Assembly (NCBI GenBank): GCA_019638695.1
Contig: JAHBTG010000020.1
Coordinates: 1 to 38,753, forward strand
Source of the DNA: Bacteroidota bacterium
Lineage (GTDB): Bacteria; Bacteroidota; Bacteroidia; J057; JAJTIE01
DNA: 38,753 nucleotides
Direction of reading: 5' to 3'
The notes under the pieces are model-generated. The model made no database searches. It saw nothing but the letters and a program-made list of their open reading frames with translations, and was not told the DNA's origin. Both the position numbers and the translations under genes were made by a program. Below are positions 1,657-31,201 of this stretch, in pieces (positions within the stretch are counted from its first letter, which is position 1; each line of letters begins with the position of its first letter).

Positions 1657-2640
1657 ATGACTGGTGCACACATATTGGTGACGGGCGGTGCCGGCTTTAT
1701 TGGCAGCCATGTGAGCGAGCGGCTGTTGGCGGCTGGCGCACGGGTGACAGTGGTCGATAACTTCGACCCGTTCTATCCGCGTTTACTCAAGGAAGAAAAC
1801 CTGCAGCGCTTGCAGGGCTATCCGTTGTTCCGGTTCCTGGAACTGGACATCCGGGATGCGGGCATGCCCGCACAGCTGGATGCTCTGCCACAAGTGGATG
1901 CGGTGATCCACCTGGCGGCCAAGGCGGGTGTGCTGCCTTCCATTGAGGATCCGGATGTGTATACGGAGGTTAACATACGCGGCACACAGCACCTGCTGGA
2001 GTGGATGCGCCGTGCCGGGGTGAACAAGCTGGTGTTTGGCAGCAGCAGCTCCGTCTATGGCAATAGTCCCCGGGTACCCTTCCGGGAGGAGGAGACGCCC
2101 GACCGTCCCATATCTCCCTATGCTTTTACCAAGCGCGCCTGCGAACTGATGACCCACACCTGGCACCATCTTTTTGGGCTGGATGTCCTGAACCTGCGGT
2201 TCTTCACCGTATTCGGGCCCGGCCAGCGTCCGGACCTGGCCATCCGCAAGTTCACGGACCGCATTCTGCGCGGGGAACCCATACCGGTCTATGGCGACGG
2301 CTCCACCGCCCGGGATTATACCTATGTGGGCGATATTGCAGACGGTGTGGTGCGTGCCCTGCAGCATGTGCTGCATCACCAGGGAGTATATGATATCCTC
2401 AACCTGGGCAATCACAGCCCCATCACCCTTTCCGAAATGATAGCCACCCTGGAGCAGGTGATCGGGTTGCCGGCCATCATAGACCGGCAGCCGCTGCAAC
2501 CCGGCGATGTCACCCGCACCTGGGCGGATATCAGCCGCGCACAGCAGCTGATCGGCTATTACCCGGCCACTTCCTTTACCGACGGTGTGGCCCGTTTCGT
2601 CACCTGGTACCGGGAGAAGCAGTTCAGCAAAGCACATTAA
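1657..2640 (+). CDS. NAD-dependent epimerase, UDP-glucuronate 4-epimerase-like
   Basis: A short-chain dehydrogenase/reductase of the extended sugar-nucleotide epimerase family, 327 residues from the chosen ATG. It has the N-terminal NAD-binding GGAGFIGSH motif, a Ser-rich segment before the active site (GSSSSVYG) and the catalytic YxxxK as YAFTK. It also carries FFTVFGPGQRPDLAI and a C-terminal QPGDV...ADI segment, which are characteristic of UDP-glucuronate 4-epimerases; related GalE or dTDP-glucose dehydratases are less likely. The product would supply UDP-galacturonate for surface polysaccharide. An in-frame ATG at 1612 would add 15 residues before the Rossmann fold, so 1657 is preferred. 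It is divergent from the kinase gene and followed 52 bases later by an exported protein gene. Family certain, substrate inferred. Confidence 0.87.
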   Translation: MTGAHILVTGGAGFIGSHVSERLLAAGARVTVVDNFDPFYPRLLKEENLQRLQGYPLFRFLELDIRDAGMPAQLDALPQVDAVIHLAAKAGVLPSIEDPDVYTEVNIRGTQHLLEWMRRAGVNKLVFGSSSSVYGNSPRVPFREEETPDRPISPYAFTKRACELMTHTWHHLFGLDVLNLRFFTVFGPGQRPDLAIRKFTDRILRGEPIPVYGDGSTARDYTYVGDIADGVVRALQHVLHHQGVYDILNLGNHSPITLSEMIATLEQVIGLPAIIDRQPLQPGDVTRTWADISRAQQLIGYYPATSFTDGVARFVTWYREKQFSKAH

Positions 2641-2692
2641 CGGTTGGCGAAGAGTGTGCAACGTATGTTGTGCCTCTTCGTTTCCTTCACAA

Positions 2693-4303
2693 ATGCGGTA
2701 CCGTCTTCTCTACCTGTTTGGGTTATGTCTGCTGGCAGTCAGTCCGGTTGCTGCGCAGGTAGAGTGCGGGGGAACCAAGCGGCTGAGCCTGGTTCCTAAC
2801 CCGGACGGATTTACGCCTCCGGGCGAGCTGGACCCCGGGCAGACCCTGCGCATGTGCTTCCGGCTGGAAGGGTACCTGGACCCGTCTGCGGTCAACTGGT
2901 TCCACGGCGTGCAGTTTGACTTCGGTCCGGGGTGGGATAGAACCAGCGTGCGCAACCAGAGCGCGCCGGTTCCCTGCATTGGCGCCGGGCAGTGGGGCTG
3001 GTTCCCTGCGGTCACCTCCGGTTCGGGGACGGTGTATGGCCCGGGTTTCTTTTTTGATACCAACCAGGACGGAAATCCCGGCAATAACTATGGAGACGAT
3101 GATATCTGGGGTTCCTGTTTTTTCTACAACTGGGAATTCTGTTTCGATATTACCGTGCGCGCAGATGCGGCGCCGGGCACCAGCCTGGCGGTGACGGGTC
3201 GTGTGCTTTCCGACAGCGAATCCGGCAACTGGTTCGGGGGCGCCGGAAGCTGCCAGGACCCCGTCATGCCCCCGGATGTCCTGTCGCCTCTCAAAGTGCG
3301 TGATCCCTGTACGTTTACCCTGCAGAGCCTGGTGCCGGTAGTGCCCACCTGTGCAGACCCGGCAGGAGGGAGTGTGGCTATTGCACTCAACGGTGGGACA
3401 GGACCCTTTGCTTTTTCCCTGAATGGCGGGCCTTTTGTGCCGGAGGCGTCTCCAGGTGCTTATGTTTTCACGGGCTTGTCCGCGGGTAGCGGCAGTCTTA
3501 CCGCACGGGATCTGGGTGCGCCGGGCTGCCAGCAGAGTTTCTCTTTTTCGCTGGCGGCGCCCGTTACTCCCGTCCTGGATGCCACCCGGGTAGCCGTGCA
3601 GCCCGTTACCTGCCGTGGCGATGCGGATGGCAGCCTGTCGCTTTCCCATCCGGATGCTGCGGAGCTACGTCTGAATGCCGGGGCCTGGCAACCGCTGGCC
3701 CCCTTATGGAATCTTCCTGCCGGTATGTATTCCCTGCAGGTGCGGACTACCGAAGGGTGTGAGAGCAATGTGCTCACTTTGTCGCTGGGCACCCGGTCTG
3801 TGCTGGAAGCACTTGGCAGTGTTCATAGCCCTCAGTTGTTGCTGGGAGAGCCCTTGCACCTGACTAATCTGAGCAGCGGTTATACCGCAGGGGTCTGGGA
3901 TATGGGAGACGGCACCCGGTTAGCCGCGTCCGAACCTTCCTATGTTTATGCGCAGCCTGGTATCTACCGGCCCCTGCTTCAGGTGGCAGATGCGCTGGGA
4001 TGTACGGATACCTGGCAGGCCCCGTCTGTGGAGGTGAGGGAGGTGCCCGCCTGGTCCGTGCCCAATGTGTTTAGTCCCAATAACGATGGATTGAATGATG
4101 ACTGGGGGCTTGTGCACCTTCATTTGCGGCGTGTGCAGGTCTATGCGCGCAATGGACAGCAAGTGTGGCAGCAGGCAGGCTCCAGCGTGCGCTGGGATGG
4201 CAGGGATGCCCGGGGCACTCCGGTTCCGGAGGGGACCTATACAGTCATTCTTCATTTTGAAGACCAGGCCAGTCAGGCTGTCAGCGTACTTTTGATACGC
4301 TAA
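2693..4303 (+). CDS. Secreted PKD-domain protein with gliding-type (CHU_C) C-terminal domain
   Basis: A 536-residue exported protein. The ATG at 2693 starts a clean signal peptide (MRYRLLYLFGLCLLAVSPVA, then AQ). An upstream in-frame ATG at 2585 lies inside the previous gene and would bury the signal, so it was not used. The body has many Gly, Pro and paired Cys residues and resembles the SprB-type repeat style. A PKD-like domain lies near residues 385-450 (WDMGDG, then YVYAQPGIYRPLLQV). The last ~85 residues begin with VPNVFSPNNDGLNDDW and match the gliding motility-associated C-terminal domain (TIGR04131), a type B T9SS sorting signal. It should pass the outer membrane by T9SS and sit at or leave the cell surface. 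Its role, perhaps adhesion, is unknown. Confidence 0.88.
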   Translation: MRYRLLYLFGLCLLAVSPVAAQVECGGTKRLSLVPNPDGFTPPGELDPGQTLRMCFRLEGYLDPSAVNWFHGVQFDFGPGWDRTSVRNQSAPVPCIGAGQWGWFPAVTSGSGTVYGPGFFFDTNQDGNPGNNYGDDDIWGSCFFYNWEFCFDITVRADAAPGTSLAVTGRVLSDSESGNWFGGAGSCQDPVMPPDVLSPLKVRDPCTFTLQSLVPVVPTCADPAGGSVAIALNGGTGPFAFSLNGGPFVPEASPGAYVFTGLSAGSGSLTARDLGAPGCQQSFSFSLAAPVTPVLDATRVAVQPVTCRGDADGSLSLSHPDAAELRLNAGAWQPLAPLWNLPAGMYSLQVRTTEGCESNVLTLSLGTRSVLEALGSVHSPQLLLGEPLHLTNLSSGYTAGVWDMGDGTRLAASEPSYVYAQPGIYRPLLQVADALGCTDTWQAPSVEVREVPAWSVPNVFSPNNDGLNDDWGLVHLHLRRVQVYARNGQQVWQQAGSSVRWDGRDARGTPVPEGTYTVILHFEDQASQAVSVLLIR

Positions 4304-24005: not shown

Positions 24006-24557
24006 CTATGGTGTTCTGATGGCCTCGTAGAACATGGAGGCTGAATTGAACTGTACCGGAAGCGGTTGGCTCACGGCCTTGCCCGTGGCATCTACCTGTG
24101 TGAAGAGGAAGAGGATTCCGTTGTCGGTAGAATCGGTGTCTACACTATAGCCGTAGACAACGCCTGCGACGGGGAGCAGCGCTTCGTTTCGCTCATTGAA
24201 GATGCCCTGGCTGTCGAGCCTCAATACTTCAAATGTCTTGCGTTTGGTATGGCGCAAGACGGACAGCTTCTGCACATAAATGCCCTTGTGGTCTGCACCT
24301 GGGGGGAGGCTATCCGGAAACAGAGGGGTATAGGCAACGGTCTCGGGCATCCCGTCCCGGTCAATGTCCTGGAGTTTGAACAGCGCCTTGGCGTGTGCTC
24401 CCAGGTGGTGCTTAGACTCTGTATGAGAGATGTTCTGCTCCACCACCGGGCTGCGCGATTGCCGCGCCAGGTTAGATATAGCATAGTACCCACCGATGCC
24501 CACCAGCAGGATGCCCACTACTATCCAGGTGCCCTTGTTGTGTCTTACACCAGCCAT
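24006..24557 (-). CDS. Small membrane-anchored protein overlapping the Wzc-like gene
   Basis: A 183-residue protein with one N-terminal membrane helix (about 10-28, GTWIVVGILLVGIGGYYAIS) and a soluble, probably extracytoplasmic domain. The segment KLQDIDRDGMPETVAY (about 61-76) is close to an EF-hand or dockerin-like calcium loop (D-x-D-x-D-G). Its ATG at 24557 lies inside the end of the Wzc-like gene, whose stop is at 24545-24547, a 13-base overlap in another frame, so its translation is likely coupled to that gene. This makes it a candidate accessory factor of polysaccharide export. No homologue with a known function comes to mind. Confidence 0.7.
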   Translation of the reverse strand: MAGVRHNKGTWIVVGILLVGIGGYYAISNLARQSRSPVVEQNISHTESKHHLGAHAKALFKLQDIDRDGMPETVAYTPLFPDSLPPGADHKGIYVQKLSVLRHTKRKTFEVLRLDSQGIFNERNEALLPVAGVVYGYSVDTDSTDNGILFLFTQVDATGKAVSQPLPVQFNSASMFYEAIRTP

Positions 24558-26941
24558 TTCTCATAGAATTTGCGCCACCAGGACTTTTTGTTGGCAGACT
24601 CGGAATAGTAGTTGTGCCCGTCTCCGTATCCATAGCCGTATCCGTAGCCATAACCGTATCCATAGCCATAGCCATAGCCATAGCCGTACTTCTGGATCAT
24701 CAGGTCCAGCGAGTTGAGAATGATATACAGTTTCTTGATATCGTGCTCTATCACAACCCGTTCGATGAACTTGAGATACATCTTCTTGCTATAGTCTGCC
24801 CTGAAAATATAGAAGTTAAGGTCGCTATATTTCAATAAAGAGAGTGCATCGGATACCAGGCCCAGGGGAGAAGTGTCCATCACTACATAGTCATAATGTT
24901 CGCCCAGTTTTTCCAGCAACTCCCCAAACCGCTTGCTGGTAATCATCTCTGAGGGGTTGGGCGGGATGGGGCCGGCCGGAATGACATCGAAGTTTACATA
25001 GCCCGTCCCCTGTACAATGTCTTCCCATTCGTCTTTGCCTATTACATAGGTGGTGATGCCGGAATTATTGGAGATGCCTACCGTCTTGTACAGGCGGGGT
25101 TTGCGAAGGTCTACATCCAGCAGCACCACTTTTTTGTCCAGCAGAGACAGGATGGAGGCCAGGTTCAGGCTCACAAATGATTTGCCTTCTCCCGAGATGG
25201 TAGACGTTACCGTGATGTAAGTAGCCTTGCGTTCTCCTTTGAAGAATTGGATACTGTTACGCAGCGCCCGGAAAGACTCTGTTACCATAGACTTCCGGTT
25301 GGTGAGCACATGCAGGTGATTCTTCTTGATCTCTTTGGAGTTGGCAATTTCTGCGATCACCGGCAGCTCGGTAGTTGCCTCCAGTTCGGCTTTGAAAGAG
25401 ATGCGCTGTTTGGTAAACTCTTTGACAACGATAAAACCTATGGAAAGCAGGAGACCTGAAAGAAAGCTGATGTAGGTAATGAGCTGCTTCTTGGGAGAAA
25501 CCGGGGTGGGCAGCACACTGGGGGGGTTCACGATCTGGCTGCGAGACACCAATGCAGCTTTGGCCAGGTTCAGGGTTTGTATCTTTCTCCTGTTCTCAGA
25601 TACCAGTTCATCGTAATAGGTGAAATTGCTGGATGTGAGTTCATATTGCCGGAGAATATCCGGTTTGTTGAGCAGATCCCGTTCGGCCTGCTGGCTCTCA
25701 ACCTTCAACTGCCGCAGAAGATCGGGCTCTACCTGTATGGTATACCATAGGGTCTTTTTTATCTTGTCTACTGTCTCCTGGATGCTCTCATCTCTGCGAA
25801 TAACCATGACACTTCTTCTGCTGACCACATCGGCCAGCTGGTTGCGTTCTTCGATCAGTTGTACCAGTGCATCCAGCAGCAGATTGGCTTGTTCGGCCTC
25901 TGTCTTGATAAAGAAGGGCAGGTATATCTTTTCCTGGCGGAGTGTACTGGCAACAGAGTCTAGCTGGCGTATAATGACAGGGTAGATGCTTTTGCTGGAC
26001 TGTATCTGCTGTTGTATGGAAGCATATTTCTTTTGTTTCTCCTGTGCCTCAGCGCCTATAAGGTCTATTTTATATATCTTGTTGCGGTACTCAAAATCGA
26101 GCAGTGCCTGCTTGGAAAGATCCAGGGAGTCTTTCAGATTATTTGTAAATTCATTGATAAAATGGATCTGTTTGTTAAAGGATTCCTCATTAATCTTTTG
26201 CTCATTCTCAAAATAAATCTTGATGATCTGCCCCAGGATATCCTTGCCTCTCTCTGTATTCTCATCTAGGTAAGTCATGTTAAATAACTCCACAGACTCT
26301 GCGCGGGTCATTCCAAACCGGGATCTTATCTGGCCAAGCTGGTGATCTTCGGTATGTACCACAAACTTGATGACCCGCTCCGGGCTAATGGGTTCCCCGA
26401 TCAGCTTTATCTTGAGCTTGCTGTTGTTCACGGCAAGCGTTTCGTTGTATTTTACTTCAATAAAATCATCTGTATTACCCACTGAGATCATACAGGTGTT
26501 GGCATGATGTCCTTTTATATAAATGGGCGTTTCAAACATCTTGAAATGCACCGTGTCATACTCCACAATAAAAGGTGCCGAGCCATACAAGGTGGTTTCC
26601 CGCAAGCGGCCTACATCACTGTATTCAACGTGCAATTTCAGGTTCTGGATAACCCTTCTGAGGTTATTATCGCTTTTGATAATAACCATGATGGTTTCCG
26701 TCTGCTCTCTGAGCAGACCGTTTACCTGGTCTCCCATTTTGCTGTCCAGCGCACCGTTGAGCCCAATGTCTATCTGTACCTTACAGGTAATGCTATAGAT
26801 TGTGGGTGTATAACGAAGATACAGGAAGCCGGCCAGATAGGTGATCCCTGTAGCCAGTAAGATATAGAACTTTTTTCTCAGTATGGCGCTAAAGACCCTG
26901 AGAATAGGATTCGACTCTTTATTTTGATCTGTAGCAGCCAC
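24545..26941 (-). CDS. Wzc-like polysaccharide co-polymerase and tyrosine autokinase
   Basis: A 798-residue BY-kinase. It has an N-terminal Wzz-type domain between two membrane helices (about 27-48 and 488-510), with long coiled-coil helices between them. The cytoplasmic kinase has Walker A in STISGEGKSFVSLNLA, Walker A' in VVLLDVDLRKPRLY and Walker B in YVVMDTSPLGLVSDA. The C-terminus carries the expected tyrosine cluster in extreme form: eleven Tyr-Gly repeats (24623-24688), then HNYYSESANKKSWW. Such tails are autophosphorylated in trans and control export and chain length through the outer-membrane partner. It is 1 base downstream of the Wza-like gene. Base composition is lower in GC than the flanks. 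Confidence 0.93.
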   Translation of the reverse strand: MAATDQNKESNPILRVFSAILRKKFYILLATGITYLAGFLYLRYTPTIYSITCKVQIDIGLNGALDSKMGDQVNGLLREQTETIMVIIKSDNNLRRVIQNLKLHVEYSDVGRLRETTLYGSAPFIVEYDTVHFKMFETPIYIKGHHANTCMISVGNTDDFIEVKYNETLAVNNSKLKIKLIGEPISPERVIKFVVHTEDHQLGQIRSRFGMTRAESVELFNMTYLDENTERGKDILGQIIKIYFENEQKINEESFNKQIHFINEFTNNLKDSLDLSKQALLDFEYRNKIYKIDLIGAEAQEKQKKYASIQQQIQSSKSIYPVIIRQLDSVASTLRQEKIYLPFFIKTEAEQANLLLDALVQLIEERNQLADVVSRRSVMVIRRDESIQETVDKIKKTLWYTIQVEPDLLRQLKVESQQAERDLLNKPDILRQYELTSSNFTYYDELVSENRRKIQTLNLAKAALVSRSQIVNPPSVLPTPVSPKKQLITYISFLSGLLLSIGFIVVKEFTKQRISFKAELEATTELPVIAEIANSKEIKKNHLHVLTNRKSMVTESFRALRNSIQFFKGERKATYITVTSTISGEGKSFVSLNLASILSLLDKKVVLLDVDLRKPRLYKTVGISNNSGITTYVIGKDEWEDIVQGTGYVNFDVIPAGPIPPNPSEMITSKRFGELLEKLGEHYDYVVMDTSPLGLVSDALSLLKYSDLNFYIFRADYSKKMYLKFIERVVIEHDIKKLYIILNSLDLMIQKYGYGYGYGYGYGYGYGYGYGYGDGHNYYSESANKKSWWRKFYEKWLV
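24623..24688 (-). repeat. Hexanucleotide tandem repeat encoding (Tyr-Gly)11
   Basis: Sixty-six bases made of eleven 6-base units of the form TAY-GGN (such as TATGGC and TACGGA) in the kinase reading frame. Gain or loss of a unit adds or removes one Tyr-Gly and keeps the frame. Confidence 0.9.
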
Positions 26942-26942
26942 T

Positions 26943-27806
26943 TTACAGGATTATATTGAGAATAAGGACAGAGAAAGAAACGGCTAAGTTGACTGCCTGC
27001 AAATAGGGGGATATCTGAGAAAATGCAAGGAAGAATGGCTTGCTCTCAGCATAAATAATATCATCTGAATAAATAGGAATGATATTCTTCTTCAATACTT
27101 CGATCTTCCTCAGATCTATCCATATGATCTGTACATTATCTGTTTCGTAGTTCCTGATGATCTTTACCTTGCGTATCTTGTTCACAAACGATACCCCCCC
27201 CGCAGTTGCCAGCACCTCTATAAGCGAACTTTGTTCCGTACCCATTTTAATTACCCGGGCCATGTTTTCCTGGCTGGTTCCTACGCCCACAGGGCTCATG
27301 CCTGACATGCCGCCTCCAAACCCAAACAAGTATAGCTTCAGGTTAGTAATGCGGCAGTTGACCACCGGGTTATCATAAGATTTGGCCAGTTCCTGCTCTA
27401 TAAGATTCGTCACCTCATCGGTCACTTTGCCTGCCACATAAATACGGGGAATGAGCGGCATGTAAAAATACCCGTCGTGTGTGACAATACCCTCGAAAAT
27501 ATTCCCTTTGAGGCCCATTTCGTCTTTTTCCTTCAGGATGTCGGGCAGGTTCAGTATCTGCACCTCCAGTTCATCTCCCGGGCGTATCTTGTGCCGGTAG
27601 GCCAGGTAGCTGTTCTCATCGTCCCGCAGTTTTATGATAGGCTGGTTTGTGGTCCTTTTTTGCTCCTTGTAATATTTCTCATAGGTACTCTGGAACATCT
27701 GGGTCTTTTGCGAGCAGCCCCCCAGCATCCATGGCAGCGTAGCCAGCATAATGTAGAAAAAGGACGAAAAAGGAACCCCCAAGGGGTTTTTGCACTTACC
27801 TGGCAT
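26943..27806 (-). CDS. Wza-like polysaccharide export lipoprotein
   Basis: An outer-membrane polysaccharide export protein, 287 residues from ATG 27806. A lipoprotein signal ends at the lipobox LGGC (Cys31). A Poly_export domain follows, starting RHKIRPGDELEVQILNLPD and continuing with VTHDGYFYMPLIPRIYVAGKV. An SLBB-like segment ATAGGVSFVNKIRKVKIIR and a C-terminal hydrophobic helix (last 25 residues) complete the Wza layout. A Gly/Met-rich insert GFGGGMSGMSPVGVG lies in the middle. Upstream in-frame ATGs at 27824 and 27860 are possible; a TATTTTTG box (27833-27826) just ahead of 27824 favours 27806. It should form the outer channel for the adjacent Wzc-like kinase. Confidence 0.85.
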   Translation of the reverse strand: MPGKCKNPLGVPFSSFFYIMLATLPWMLGGCSQKTQMFQSTYEKYYKEQKRTTNQPIIKLRDDENSYLAYRHKIRPGDELEVQILNLPDILKEKDEMGLKGNIFEGIVTHDGYFYMPLIPRIYVAGKVTDEVTNLIEQELAKSYDNPVVNCRITNLKLYLFGFGGGMSGMSPVGVGTSQENMARVIKMGTEQSSLIEVLATAGGVSFVNKIRKVKIIRNYETDNVQIIWIDLRKIEVLKKNIIPIYSDDIIYAESKPFFLAFSQISPYLQAVNLAVSFSVLILNIIL

Positions 27807-27825
27807 CTTTTTTTTGGTAAACATG

Positions 27826-27833
27826 CAAAAATA
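27826..27833 (-). promoter_or_regulatory. Possible -7 box of the polysaccharide export operon
   Basis: On the minus strand this reads TATTTTTG, a perfect TAnnTTTG. A TTTG lies 24 bases upstream (27861-27858), more than the usual 19-21, so the call is tentative. It would place the start of transcription near 27819 and so favour the ATG at 27806. Confidence 0.35.
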
Positions 27834-27897
27834 AAGCTTTAGTGACGGAAAGATGAGCAAACTCCATAAATTTAGTTCCCCACTTATTTTCGCTTAC

Positions 27898-29808
27898 ATG
27901 CCCAGCCAGATCCGCTCTTACCCAGACTATACCGCCCACTATACCCTTGCGCAGCAGGATCCCGATGCCTATTGGGCAGAGGTTGCGGGCCGGTACCATT
28001 GGTTTGCACCCTGGCAGCAGGTGCACACGGGCGGATTCCTGCGGGCAGATATGCAGTGGTTTGCCGGCGCCCGCACCAATCTCGCGTATAATTGCCTGGA
28101 CCGCCATTTGCCCGTGCTGGCAGACCATACCGCCATTATCTGGGAGAGTAATGACCCCCGCGAAGCGCCGTTGCATATTTCCTTTGCACAGCTCTATGAC
28201 CAGGTAAACCGCATGGCCCATCTCTTGCGCAGCCTGGGCGTACAGCGTGGAGACCGCGTGTGCATCTATCTGCCCATGATACCCGAAGCGGCTTATGCCA
28301 TGCTCGCCTGTGCCCGCCTGGGAGCCATCCACTCCGTAGTTTTTGGAGGCTTTAGCGCCACTGCCCTGGCAGACCGTATCCGGGATGCCGATTGCCAGCT
28401 CCTCATCACTGCAGATGCCACCATGCGCGGCAATAAAGCCGTGCCGCTTAAGGCCATTGCAGATGAAGCACTCCTGCACTGCCCCGGTATCCGGCATTGC
28501 CTGGTCGTGCAAAGGGCCGGCATTGCAGTAGAAATGCGCACCCCGCGTGACTTATGGTATCATGAGGTACTGGCCGGTGTCCCCCGGGATGCCCGGGTCC
28601 CCGCAGAAGAAATGAATGCCGAAGACCCGCTGTTTATCCTCTATACCAGTGGCTCCACGGGCAAGCCCAAAGGCATTGTGCACACCACCGGTGGTTACAT
28701 GGTCAATGCCGGCCACAGCTTTGCCAACGTCTTTCAGGTGCAGCTGCAGGATATCTGGTGGTGCACTGCCGATGTGGGATGGATCACCGGCCATACCTAC
28801 CTGATCTATGGCCCCCTGCTCAATGGCATTACCACCCTCATGTTTGAAGGGGTACCCACCTGGCCGGATGCCGGCCGCTTCTGGGAAGTGATCGACCGCC
28901 ACAAGGTCACGCTCTTTTATACGGCGCCTACTGCCATCCGCGCACTTATGGCCGCAGGAAATACATGGGTGGAGAACAAAGACCTCGGTTCCCTGCGCAT
29001 CATTGGCAGCGTGGGAGAACCTATCAATATAGAGGCCTGGGAATGGTATCACACCTATGTGGGCAAACGACGCTGCCCCGTGCTGGATACCTGGTGGCAG
29101 ACGGAAACCGGTGCTATTATGATCTCTCCCATGGGCGGCCAGCCCGCACATAAACCCTGTTTTGCCGCCCTGCCCCTGCCCGGTGTAGAACCGGTGCTGA
29201 TGGACCCCGAAGGCAAAGAGATCACCTGGAAGCCGGGAGATACCATAGAAGGTAACCTGTGCATACGCAACCCCTGGCCCGGCATCGCCCGCACAACCTG
29301 GGGAGATCATGAGCGTTTTCTCAATACCTACTTTACTGCCTATCCCGGTTACTATTTTACCGGAGACGGCTGCAAGCGCGATGCCGAAGGCCACTACCGC
29401 ATCCTGGGCCGCGTGGACGATGTCATCAATGTATCCGGCCACCGTATAGGCACTGCAGAAGTGGAAAATGCCATCAACGAGCATCCGGATATCATCGAGA
29501 GCGCCGTGGTGGGCTATCCCCATGACATCAAGGGCCAGGGCATCTATGCCTATGTAATAGTGGGCAAGCCCGGTCTTCCTCAAGAAGAGATTGCCCGCAC
29601 AGTGAATGAAGTGATCGTCAGGCTGATAGGTCCCATAGCCAAGCCGGATAAGCTCCAGCTGGTGACCGACCTCCCCAAGACCCGCAGCGGCAAGATCATG
29701 CGCCGCATCCTGCGCAAAATAGCCGCCGGCGAACTCGACAATATGGGAGATACTTCCACGCTACTGGATCCCGGTGTGGTAGATGCCATTATTGCAGGGA
29801 GGCAATAG
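27898..29808 (+). CDS. acs: Acetyl-CoA synthetase (AMP-forming)
   Basis: A 636-residue acyl-adenylate-forming enzyme that activates acetate to acetyl-CoA. Key motifs are the P-loop YTSGSTGKPKGIVHTTGGY, the acetate-pocket Trp in DTWWQTETGAIMISP, GRVDDVINVSGHRIGTAEVE, and the C-terminal catalytic lysine (about Lys599) in TRSGKIMRRILRK, which is the residue subject to regulatory acetylation in known Acs. The start at 27898 (MPSQIRSYPDY) fits the family; an ATG at 27853 would add 15 residues. It is divergent from the Wza-like gene, with a gap of under 100 bases. No acetate regulator or deacetylase gene is adjacent. Confidence 0.97.
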   Translation: MPSQIRSYPDYTAHYTLAQQDPDAYWAEVAGRYHWFAPWQQVHTGGFLRADMQWFAGARTNLAYNCLDRHLPVLADHTAIIWESNDPREAPLHISFAQLYDQVNRMAHLLRSLGVQRGDRVCIYLPMIPEAAYAMLACARLGAIHSVVFGGFSATALADRIRDADCQLLITADATMRGNKAVPLKAIADEALLHCPGIRHCLVVQRAGIAVEMRTPRDLWYHEVLAGVPRDARVPAEEMNAEDPLFILYTSGSTGKPKGIVHTTGGYMVNAGHSFANVFQVQLQDIWWCTADVGWITGHTYLIYGPLLNGITTLMFEGVPTWPDAGRFWEVIDRHKVTLFYTAPTAIRALMAAGNTWVENKDLGSLRIIGSVGEPINIEAWEWYHTYVGKRRCPVLDTWWQTETGAIMISPMGGQPAHKPCFAALPLPGVEPVLMDPEGKEITWKPGDTIEGNLCIRNPWPGIARTTWGDHERFLNTYFTAYPGYYFTGDGCKRDAEGHYRILGRVDDVINVSGHRIGTAEVENAINEHPDIIESAVVGYPHDIKGQGIYAYVIVGKPGLPQEEIARTVNEVIVRLIGPIAKPDKLQLVTDLPKTRSGKIMRRILRKIAAGELDNMGDTSTLLDPGVVDAIIAGRQ

Positions 29809-29842
29809 CCCAATAATTTCTTCATGGCTCTTCAAAAGCAGC

Positions 29843-29850
29843 TATATTTG
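29843..29850 (+). promoter_or_regulatory. -7 box of the NHL-repeat gene
   Basis: TATATTTG is a perfect TAnnTTTG, 34 bases upstream of the ATG at 29885. A TTTC at 29817-29820 lies 22 bases upstream as a weak -33 element. Confidence 0.45.
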
Positions 29851-29884
29851 CAAATCCGATTATAAACCTATCCTTTATTTGAAT

Positions 29885-31201
29885 ATGATTAGAACAGCAG
29901 TTTTCTTTCTATTATTAATTTGTGCTTTAACTGGTTTACATGCACAGCTCACCATGTCTACAGTTGCAGGCGATGGTCGTTCTGGGCTGGTCAATGGCCC
30001 GGGCGCTAATGCACGCTTTATGGTATTGGATGGTATCGCTGTAGACAAACACGGCAATATCTATGTCTCGGATATGTTCTATCATCATATCCGCAAGATC
30101 ACCCCGGATGGCACGGTAAGTACCTTTGCCGGAGGTACGGAAAGTGGCTTTGCCGATGGCACGGGTACGGCAGCTCGCTTTCATACGCCCACCGGACTGG
30201 CTGTAGATACATTGGGTAATATCTATGTGGCAGATAGAGATAATCACAGGATTCGCAAGATCACCCCGGCAGGAGTGGTATCCACCCTCGCAGGTAGCAG
30301 TACGCCGGGTTCTGGCTATGGAGGGGGCGGCTCAAATGACGGCCCCGGTAATACCGCCCAGTTTCATGCTCCCCTGGCTGTGGCTGTAGATACTAATGGA
30401 TATGTTTATGTATCAGATGCGATAAATCATCGTATCCGCAAGATCACCCCCGCGGGAGTGGTGTCCACCCTCGCGGGTAGTAGTAAGGGGTATCAGAACG
30501 GTACCGGTACAGCAGCCCGTTTTGAACAGCCTCAGGCCATAACCGTAGACCTTAACGGCAATGTCTATGTAGCAGATGTAGTGAATGCCCGCATTCGCAA
30601 GATCACTCCCGCGGGAGTCGTAACTACTATTGCAGGAGATGGTACGGAAGGCTACCAGGACGCACAGGGTACCGCCGCCAAATTCAATCGCATCTCTGGT
30701 TTAGCTATTGATGCAGACGGTATACTTTATATCAGCGACCGTCGGAATAACCGCATCCGTAAAATGTCAGTTTCCGGGCAGGTTACCACACTTGCAGGGA
30801 TTAACTATCCGGGCTTCTTTGATGGAGATACCGATGTGGCTATGCTCAATAACCCCATATATGTTGCATTAGACCCGGCAGGCGATCTGATCATAGTGGA
30901 TAACTATAATTACTCCGTGCGCAAGCTGGGCGGGTTATCTGCTGCCACCCGCCGGGCGCCTGCTGCTCACTGGCTCAATGCTACAGTGTACCCCAATCCG
31001 GCCTCCCAGGTAATACAAGTCATTCTGCCTGACCATGGGCTTGCACAGGTCTCGCTCCTGGATATTACTGGTAAAGTGGTCTTTACTTCGGAGATGCGTC
31101 AGTACCTGGAGATACCTGTGCATGAGCTTGCAAAAGGTATGTATGTGTTACATGTGGAGCAATCCGGAGTATTCGCTTCCGAGAAAATTATCCTGGAATA
31201 A
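29885..31201 (+). CDS. Secreted NHL-repeat beta-propeller protein with type A T9SS sorting domain
   Basis: A 438-residue exported protein. A signal peptide (MIRTAVFFLLLICALTGLHA) starts at the ATG at 29885; a longer frame from 29783 would bury it inside the end of acs. Six NHL repeats follow, each of the form GxAVDxxGNIYVADxxNHRIRKITPxGxVSTLAG, giving a six-bladed beta-propeller. The last ~75 residues (ATVYPNPASQVIQVILPDHG, later LAKGMYVLHV and a KIILE end) match the Por secretion system C-terminal sorting domain (TIGR04183). T9SS should carry it to the cell surface. NHL propellers bind proteins, sugars or RNA; the ligand is unknown. Repeats two and three are nearly identical in DNA. Confidence 0.92.
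   Translation: MIRTAVFFLLLICALTGLHAQLTMSTVAGDGRSGLVNGPGANARFMVLDGIAVDKHGNIYVSDMFYHHIRKITPDGTVSTFAGGTESGFADGTGTAARFHTPTGLAVDTLGNIYVADRDNHRIRKITPAGVVSTLAGSSTPGSGYGGGGSNDGPGNTAQFHAPLAVAVDTNGYVYVSDAINHRIRKITPAGVVSTLAGSSKGYQNGTGTAARFEQPQAITVDLNGNVYVADVVNARIRKITPAGVVTTIAGDGTEGYQDAQGTAAKFNRISGLAIDADGILYISDRRNNRIRKMSVSGQVTTLAGINYPGFFDGDTDVAMLNNPIYVALDPAGDLIIVDNYNYSVRKLGGLSAATRRAPAAHWLNATVYPNPASQVIQVILPDHGLAQVSLLDITGKVVFTSEMRQYLEIPVHELAKGMYVLHVEQSGVFASEKIILE

Follow-up and report, generated by a model that had tools for sequence, protein, structure and literature searches.

Wzc of E. coli (K30, 7NHR, 7NIB and 9EXO; K-12, 3LA6 and 9R62) is a BY-kinase of the PCP-2a type. In the K30 protein the tail of a protomer reaches into the active site of the adjacent one, phosphorylation begins at the C-terminal tyrosines and proceeds N-terminally, the tyrosine at position i-2 occupies a pocket (the YxY ratchet), and the octamer dissolves after about four phosphorylations (PMC11986026, PMC8285477). 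The pocket residue E675 of K30 Wzc has been proposed to exclude phosphotyrosine. Polymer chain length is reportedly affected by the level of tail phosphorylation (review, PMC12220298).

In the same phylum as the kinase described here, Ptk1 of Porphyromonas gingivalis (PGN_1524) has a Wza-like gene upstream, the BY-kinase motifs and a tyrosine-rich C-terminal cluster. Experiments have demonstrated its autophosphorylation and its requirement in exopolysaccharide production (PMC4082711, PMC8787120), and thereby establish both properties for a Bacteroidota kinase of this type. The gene for the PHP phosphatase Php1, PGN_1525, bears the number next to ptk1. In the PCP-2b system CapAB of Staphylococcus aureus (3BFV, 2VED) the membrane part and the kinase lie on two different polypeptides and the tail is shorter (PMC8285477).

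The window analysed in this work is the whole stretch of 38,753 nucleotides of contig JAHBTG010000020.1 from a Bacteroidota bacterium with a source assembly of 2.9 Mb (GCA_019638695.1).

The kinase and its locus

The gene at 24545..26941 on the minus strand encodes a 798 amino acid protein, which combines in one chain the Wzz/GNVR-type membrane and periplasmic part and the kinase domain, as is found in Wzc-type proteins. In the Pfam search GNVR and AAA_31 are above cut-off and Wzz is just below it (24.8 vs 25.5), while the NCBIfam model TIGR01007 (polysaccharide biosynthesis tyrosine autokinase) scores 142.8 vs a cut-off of 108. The closest solved sequences are the E. coli Wzc chains, with an E value of 1.7e-37 for 7nhr in phmmer and of about 1e-106 in a profile search. 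The AlphaFold2 model (mean pLDDT 83.5, pTM 0.56) matches Wzc 7nhs with Z 33.6 and 6.0 A over 501 residues (VIA), and the kinase domain matches Wzc 3la6 with Z 34.4 (VIA) and the S. aureus CapAB kinase fold with VIA Z 33.4 and an rmsd of 1.9 A over 237 residues.

The Walker A region TSTISGEGKSF covers residues 579-589 in alignment numbering (K587), which corresponds, to within a few codons, to 25178..25210 on the minus strand. The Walker-type motifs TSTISGEGKS, LLDVDLRKP and VVMDTSP are intact, residues K587, D611, R613 and D689 are invariant across 37 relatives, and the ExxRxxR oligomerisation motif (ESFRALR, 555-561) is kept in 36-37 of these 37. Full-length fold, domain order, Walker and ExxRxxR motifs, a Wza partner and a tyrosine-rich C-terminal tail with YxY spacing, here with 14 tyrosines among the last 55 residues, are common to E. 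coli Wzc and this protein. It is a Wzc-type (PCP-2a) tyrosine autokinase of a Wza/Wzc polysaccharide export pair, and the identification as a tyrosine autokinase in the preliminary description of this DNA is borne out by Pfam, TIGR01007 and the structural matches to Wzc.

Directly upstream, at 26943..27860 on the same minus strand, lies the gene for a Wza-like polysaccharide export protein (Poly_export PF02563, E 1.8e-11); a Wza-like match is found at 135 of the 196 loci examined in relatives. On the other side, the open reading frame at 24006..24557 (minus strand) starts within the kinase gene, sharing 13 bp with its 3' end. The 183 amino acid product falls outside the Pfam families; it apparently has a membrane segment at the N-terminus, and it contains the stretch DIDRDGMPE, which resembles a calcium loop. 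Relatives of this protein are encoded at the kinase locus of two further genera of the order (40% identity, E 1e-27 in L003; 26%, E 5e-10 in L004), and the wza-wzc operon may thus include it as a third gene.

In distinction to both E. coli wzc and ptk1 of P. gingivalis, no phosphatase gene was found adjoining this kinase gene. Nor was a CpsB/CapC-type phosphatase found in the genome, where two low-molecular-weight phosphatase (LMW-PTP) domains score above cut-off on other contigs. Neither Wzy nor Wzx was recognised among the part of the window proteins that was examined. The window also contains, at 2585-4303 and 29783-31201 on the plus strand, predicted type IX secretion substrates with CHU_C and Por_Secre_tail sorting domains and SprB/PKD and NHL repeats.

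The tyrosine-glycine tail in Bacteroidia

The C-terminus of the kinase reads ...KLYIILNSLDLMIQK(YG)11DGHNYYSESANKKSWWRKFYEKWLV. The ladder itself, residues 752-773, is encoded at 24623..24688 on the minus strand by TACGGCTATGGCTATGGCTATGGCTATGGATACGGTTATGGCTACGGATACGGCTATGGATACGGA, which gives exactly (YG)11 in frame with the 798 codon gene, as first described; in a protein with 5.9% Tyr and 5.3% Gly such a run is far beyond chance. All eleven rungs have a tyrosine at i-2. The following DGHNYY (24605..24622, minus strand) places its terminal Tyr-Tyr in the same two-residue register, which is also seen family-wide, so that the tyrosine cluster extends past 24623-24688 and holds 13 tyrosines: the limits set at first are those of the (YG)11 run and not those of the whole cluster. 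The preliminary description was correct in considering the tail longer than that of the E. coli type, since five acceptor tyrosines in a mixed context are reported for K30 Wzc (PMC11986026), as against thirteen clustered ones here, of which eleven are in perfect YG units.

The last 19 residues, encoded at 24548..24604 on the minus strand, consist of a short polar stretch and a predicted basic-aromatic helix at residues 788-797. In the AlphaFold2 model residues 751-785 are predicted to be disordered (pLDDT under 50), and the helix block has a pLDDT of about 76. This basic-aromatic extension (residues 780-798) recurs in many Bacteroidia kinases and is absent from the aligned E. coli Wzc tails. 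Past the tyrosine cluster the tails of relatives carry an acidic stretch and then, in most of the long-tailed ones, a basic segment with aromatics, which is weakly more amphipathic than its shuffles (mean z 0.7 over 56 sequences). The helix is a possible anchor of the tail to the membrane or to a partner.

In a class-wide sample a relative of the kinase was found in 335 of 395 genomes. The contig scan used an alignment as query; among the genomes compared the source genome alone represents its genus, and its family is represented by two genomes with one relative, at 38%. Among 96 non-redundant tails, with a median of 11 tyrosines, the longest YG run has between 0 and 17 units, reaching six or more in 46% and eleven or more in 15%; as the tails were retrieved by similarity to this kinase, the percentages describe its relatives and not all Bacteroidota kinases. 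In the order of the source organism runs of 13 (L004, L005), 6, 4 and 2 units occur, and tails with only 3-8 tyrosines are found in L003, L047 and L053, relatives from the same family and class. Since ladders of about this length or longer are frequent in Bacteroidia, (YG)11 is no oddity; it is towards the long end and yet ordinary for the class. A search for YG-repeat tails in BY-kinases gave nothing relevant in the open-access literature, which is weak evidence since most subscription journals lie outside such a search; the extended YG tail of this lineage is apparently undescribed, on a kinase which is itself of a known type.

Successive tyrosines are two residues apart in 619 of roughly 915 cases, and the residue between them is glycine in 571 of 623. 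One phase holds 819 of 1005 tail tyrosines vs 593 expected by shuffling (z 31), although much of this excess is due to the YG arrays themselves, which produce it. The terminal Tyr-Tyr stays in register in every one of 59 congener tails, which have interruptions by Gln, His, Asn, Thr, Ser or Gly, and indels of a single residue never appear; insertion or loss of whole YG units would also preserve the register. In two genera, represented by 30 and 25 orthologs, the cluster has 10-13 tyrosines throughout, with the rest of the protein diverging down to 50-60% identity, and six orthologs of a third genus have 14-17.

These data bear on two other explanations of the tail. It may be a tolerated low-complexity sequence, of which few tyrosines are used, probably those near the terminal YY, and the rest is a disordered tether drifting in length. 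The predicted disorder and the range of run lengths between genera fit such a tether, as does the finding that about four phosphorylations suffice in E. coli (PMC11986026). However, tyrosines at even positions are conserved between congeners (304 of 351 in genus g25 and 245 of 258 in genus g37), the register is never broken, and a mere tether would not need tyrosine at every second residue; we regard this explanation as possible, though rather unlikely. The other explanation takes the tyrosine-glycine array as a sticker for self-association or partner binding, dissolved by phosphorylation. Tyr/Gly-rich composition resembles that of self-associating low-complexity sequences, and the basic-aromatic helix after the ladder could fit this role. 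Stickers do not need a strict YxY register, however, and the same kinase is present in relatives with short tails. We consider this explanation very unlikely.

The DNA of the array

The preliminary description had placed the eleven perfect Tyr-Gly units in a 6-base tandem repeat, in which slippage would change the number of phosphosites. The eleven units are, in order, TACGGC, three times TATGGC, TATGGA, TACGGT, TATGGC, TACGGA, TACGGC, TATGGA and TACGGA. With five different hexamers among eleven units, the repeat is perfect in the protein only and not in the DNA, and Tandem Repeats Finder reports it as imperfect, with 73-86% matches at periods 6 and 18. The pure or near-pure tandem DNA repeat that characterises phase-variable loci is not present in the window array. 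Its longest perfect period-6 tract is 26 nt, a length reached in 8% of random draws from the gene's own Tyr and Gly codon usage (P about 0.08). Adjacent identical units number 2 vs 1.7 expected when the Tyr and Gly codons of the array are shuffled (P 0.54). A sequencing or assembly artefact was considered as the origin of the array and is unlikely, because the codon-mixed array is unambiguous and relatives share the design.

The same comparison was extended to 34 arrays drawn outside the heavily sampled genera; these are imperfectly independent, so that the z values are indicative. Neighbouring units are identical less often than expected (41 vs 65.7, z -3.9), and next-but-one units more often (87 vs 57.6, z 4.9). 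Outside the arrays, successive Gly codons of those genes have no such pattern (z 0.95). The 12-nt excess persists after conditioning on neighbour identity, with z 3.3 for the 34 arrays and 2.1 for 18 long ones, and alternation of units at 12 nt is seen in several lineages. Codon alternation could result from selection against pure tracts or from earlier duplications in steps of 12 nt; as the excess survives conditioning, both avoidance of slippage and 12-nt duplication are possible.

Pure tracts do exist among relatives. The L126 tail contains nine identical TATGGT hexamers in succession, a perfect tract of 54 nt, and differs by one YG unit from a congener with 81% identity. Uniform hexamers together with a one-unit difference mean that gain or loss of units probably occurs in evolution, and on its sequence the L126 array is the best candidate in the sampled set for a truly slippage-prone YG repeat. 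The kinases of L142 and L143, about 96% identical, have tails of equal length, in which five units of L143 are TACGGA and those of L142 have mixed codons; in L143 the DNA is homogenised and the length unchanged.

A rheostat, in which replication slippage alters the number of YG units between cells and so tunes phosphosites and polymer length, has in its favour that a 6-bp unit preserves the frame, that a perfect 26-nt tract is present, that L126 and the 12-nt periodicity of some relatives suggest duplication of units in evolution, and that array length varies among genera and occasionally by one unit among congeneric species. Against it stand the five different hexamers of the window array with neighbour identity at the permuted level, the under-representation of adjacent identical hexamers across the 34 separate arrays, and the constancy of the count in congeners: tyrosine number is equal in 38 of 42 pairs with 80% or more protein identity, in which the array codons are freely rearranged (the pairs come from three other genera and overlap, so that they are not independent). 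With a codon-scrambled array bearing no footprint of slippage and a stable tyrosine count in congeners, the rheostat is not supported for this gene and we consider it very unlikely.

A probable extended YxY ladder

A (YG)n tail realises the YxY pattern to the full. The reading that we favour, and hold to be fairly probable, is that (YG)11-DGHN-YY is an extended YxY ladder for a ratchet of the K30 Wzc type, reset by a low-molecular-weight phosphatase. The disordered tail of one subunit would thread into the active site of the neighbouring subunit. Phosphorylation would proceed tyrosine by tyrosine from the C-terminus, with the i-2 tyrosine already in position at each step, and glycine would be the small flexible spacer between the rungs. 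Accumulating charge would weaken the octamer until it disassembles, and the phosphatase, encoded at an unlinked site, would reset the kinase. The two-residue register and the approximate number of rungs would be kept by selection at the protein level and not by a mutable DNA repeat. Phosphorylation, its direction, the cycling of the octamer and the effect on chain length are what we infer for this kinase from E. coli K30 Wzc; that tail phosphorylation affects polysaccharide output and chain length, as the preliminary description held, agrees with the literature on the family (PMC8285477, PMC11986026, PMC12220298).

Several observations speak against this reading. The pocket residue Glu675 of K30 Wzc aligns, in the sequence alignment alone, to the non-acidic Tyr722; this position is mostly Phe (21 of 37 relatives) or another hydrophobic residue, and residues 717-726 of the kinase include no acidic one. 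The E. coli mechanism of discrimination may therefore not carry over: either discrimination of phosphotyrosine differs or is absent here, or the alignment is more shifted than it seems. As E. coli Wzc disassembles after about four phosphorylations, eleven to thirteen acceptors look excessive. The failure to recognise Wzy or Wzx among the window proteins examined also counts against it, and, since relatives have as few as 3-8 tail tyrosines, the system can do without a long ladder.

A wider proposal, which we put forward as speculative and doubtful, is that a graded YxY ladder has arisen on the Wzc kinases of Bacteroidia, with n up to about 17, a strict two-residue register, array DNA kept impure by alternating synonymous codons, and a C-terminal basic-aromatic helix that may fix the ladder's end to the membrane. 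The lifetime of an octamer, and with it that of a round of polymerisation, would then depend on how many rungs there are, a number fixed for each lineage and not varied from cell to cell.

The array is also a caution that a perfect peptide repeat need not mean a mutable DNA repeat. Because the tails of Bacteroidia differ naturally in their number of YxY rungs, ratchet and threshold models of how Wzc kinases convert the phosphorylation of their tails into polymer length could be tested by counting.
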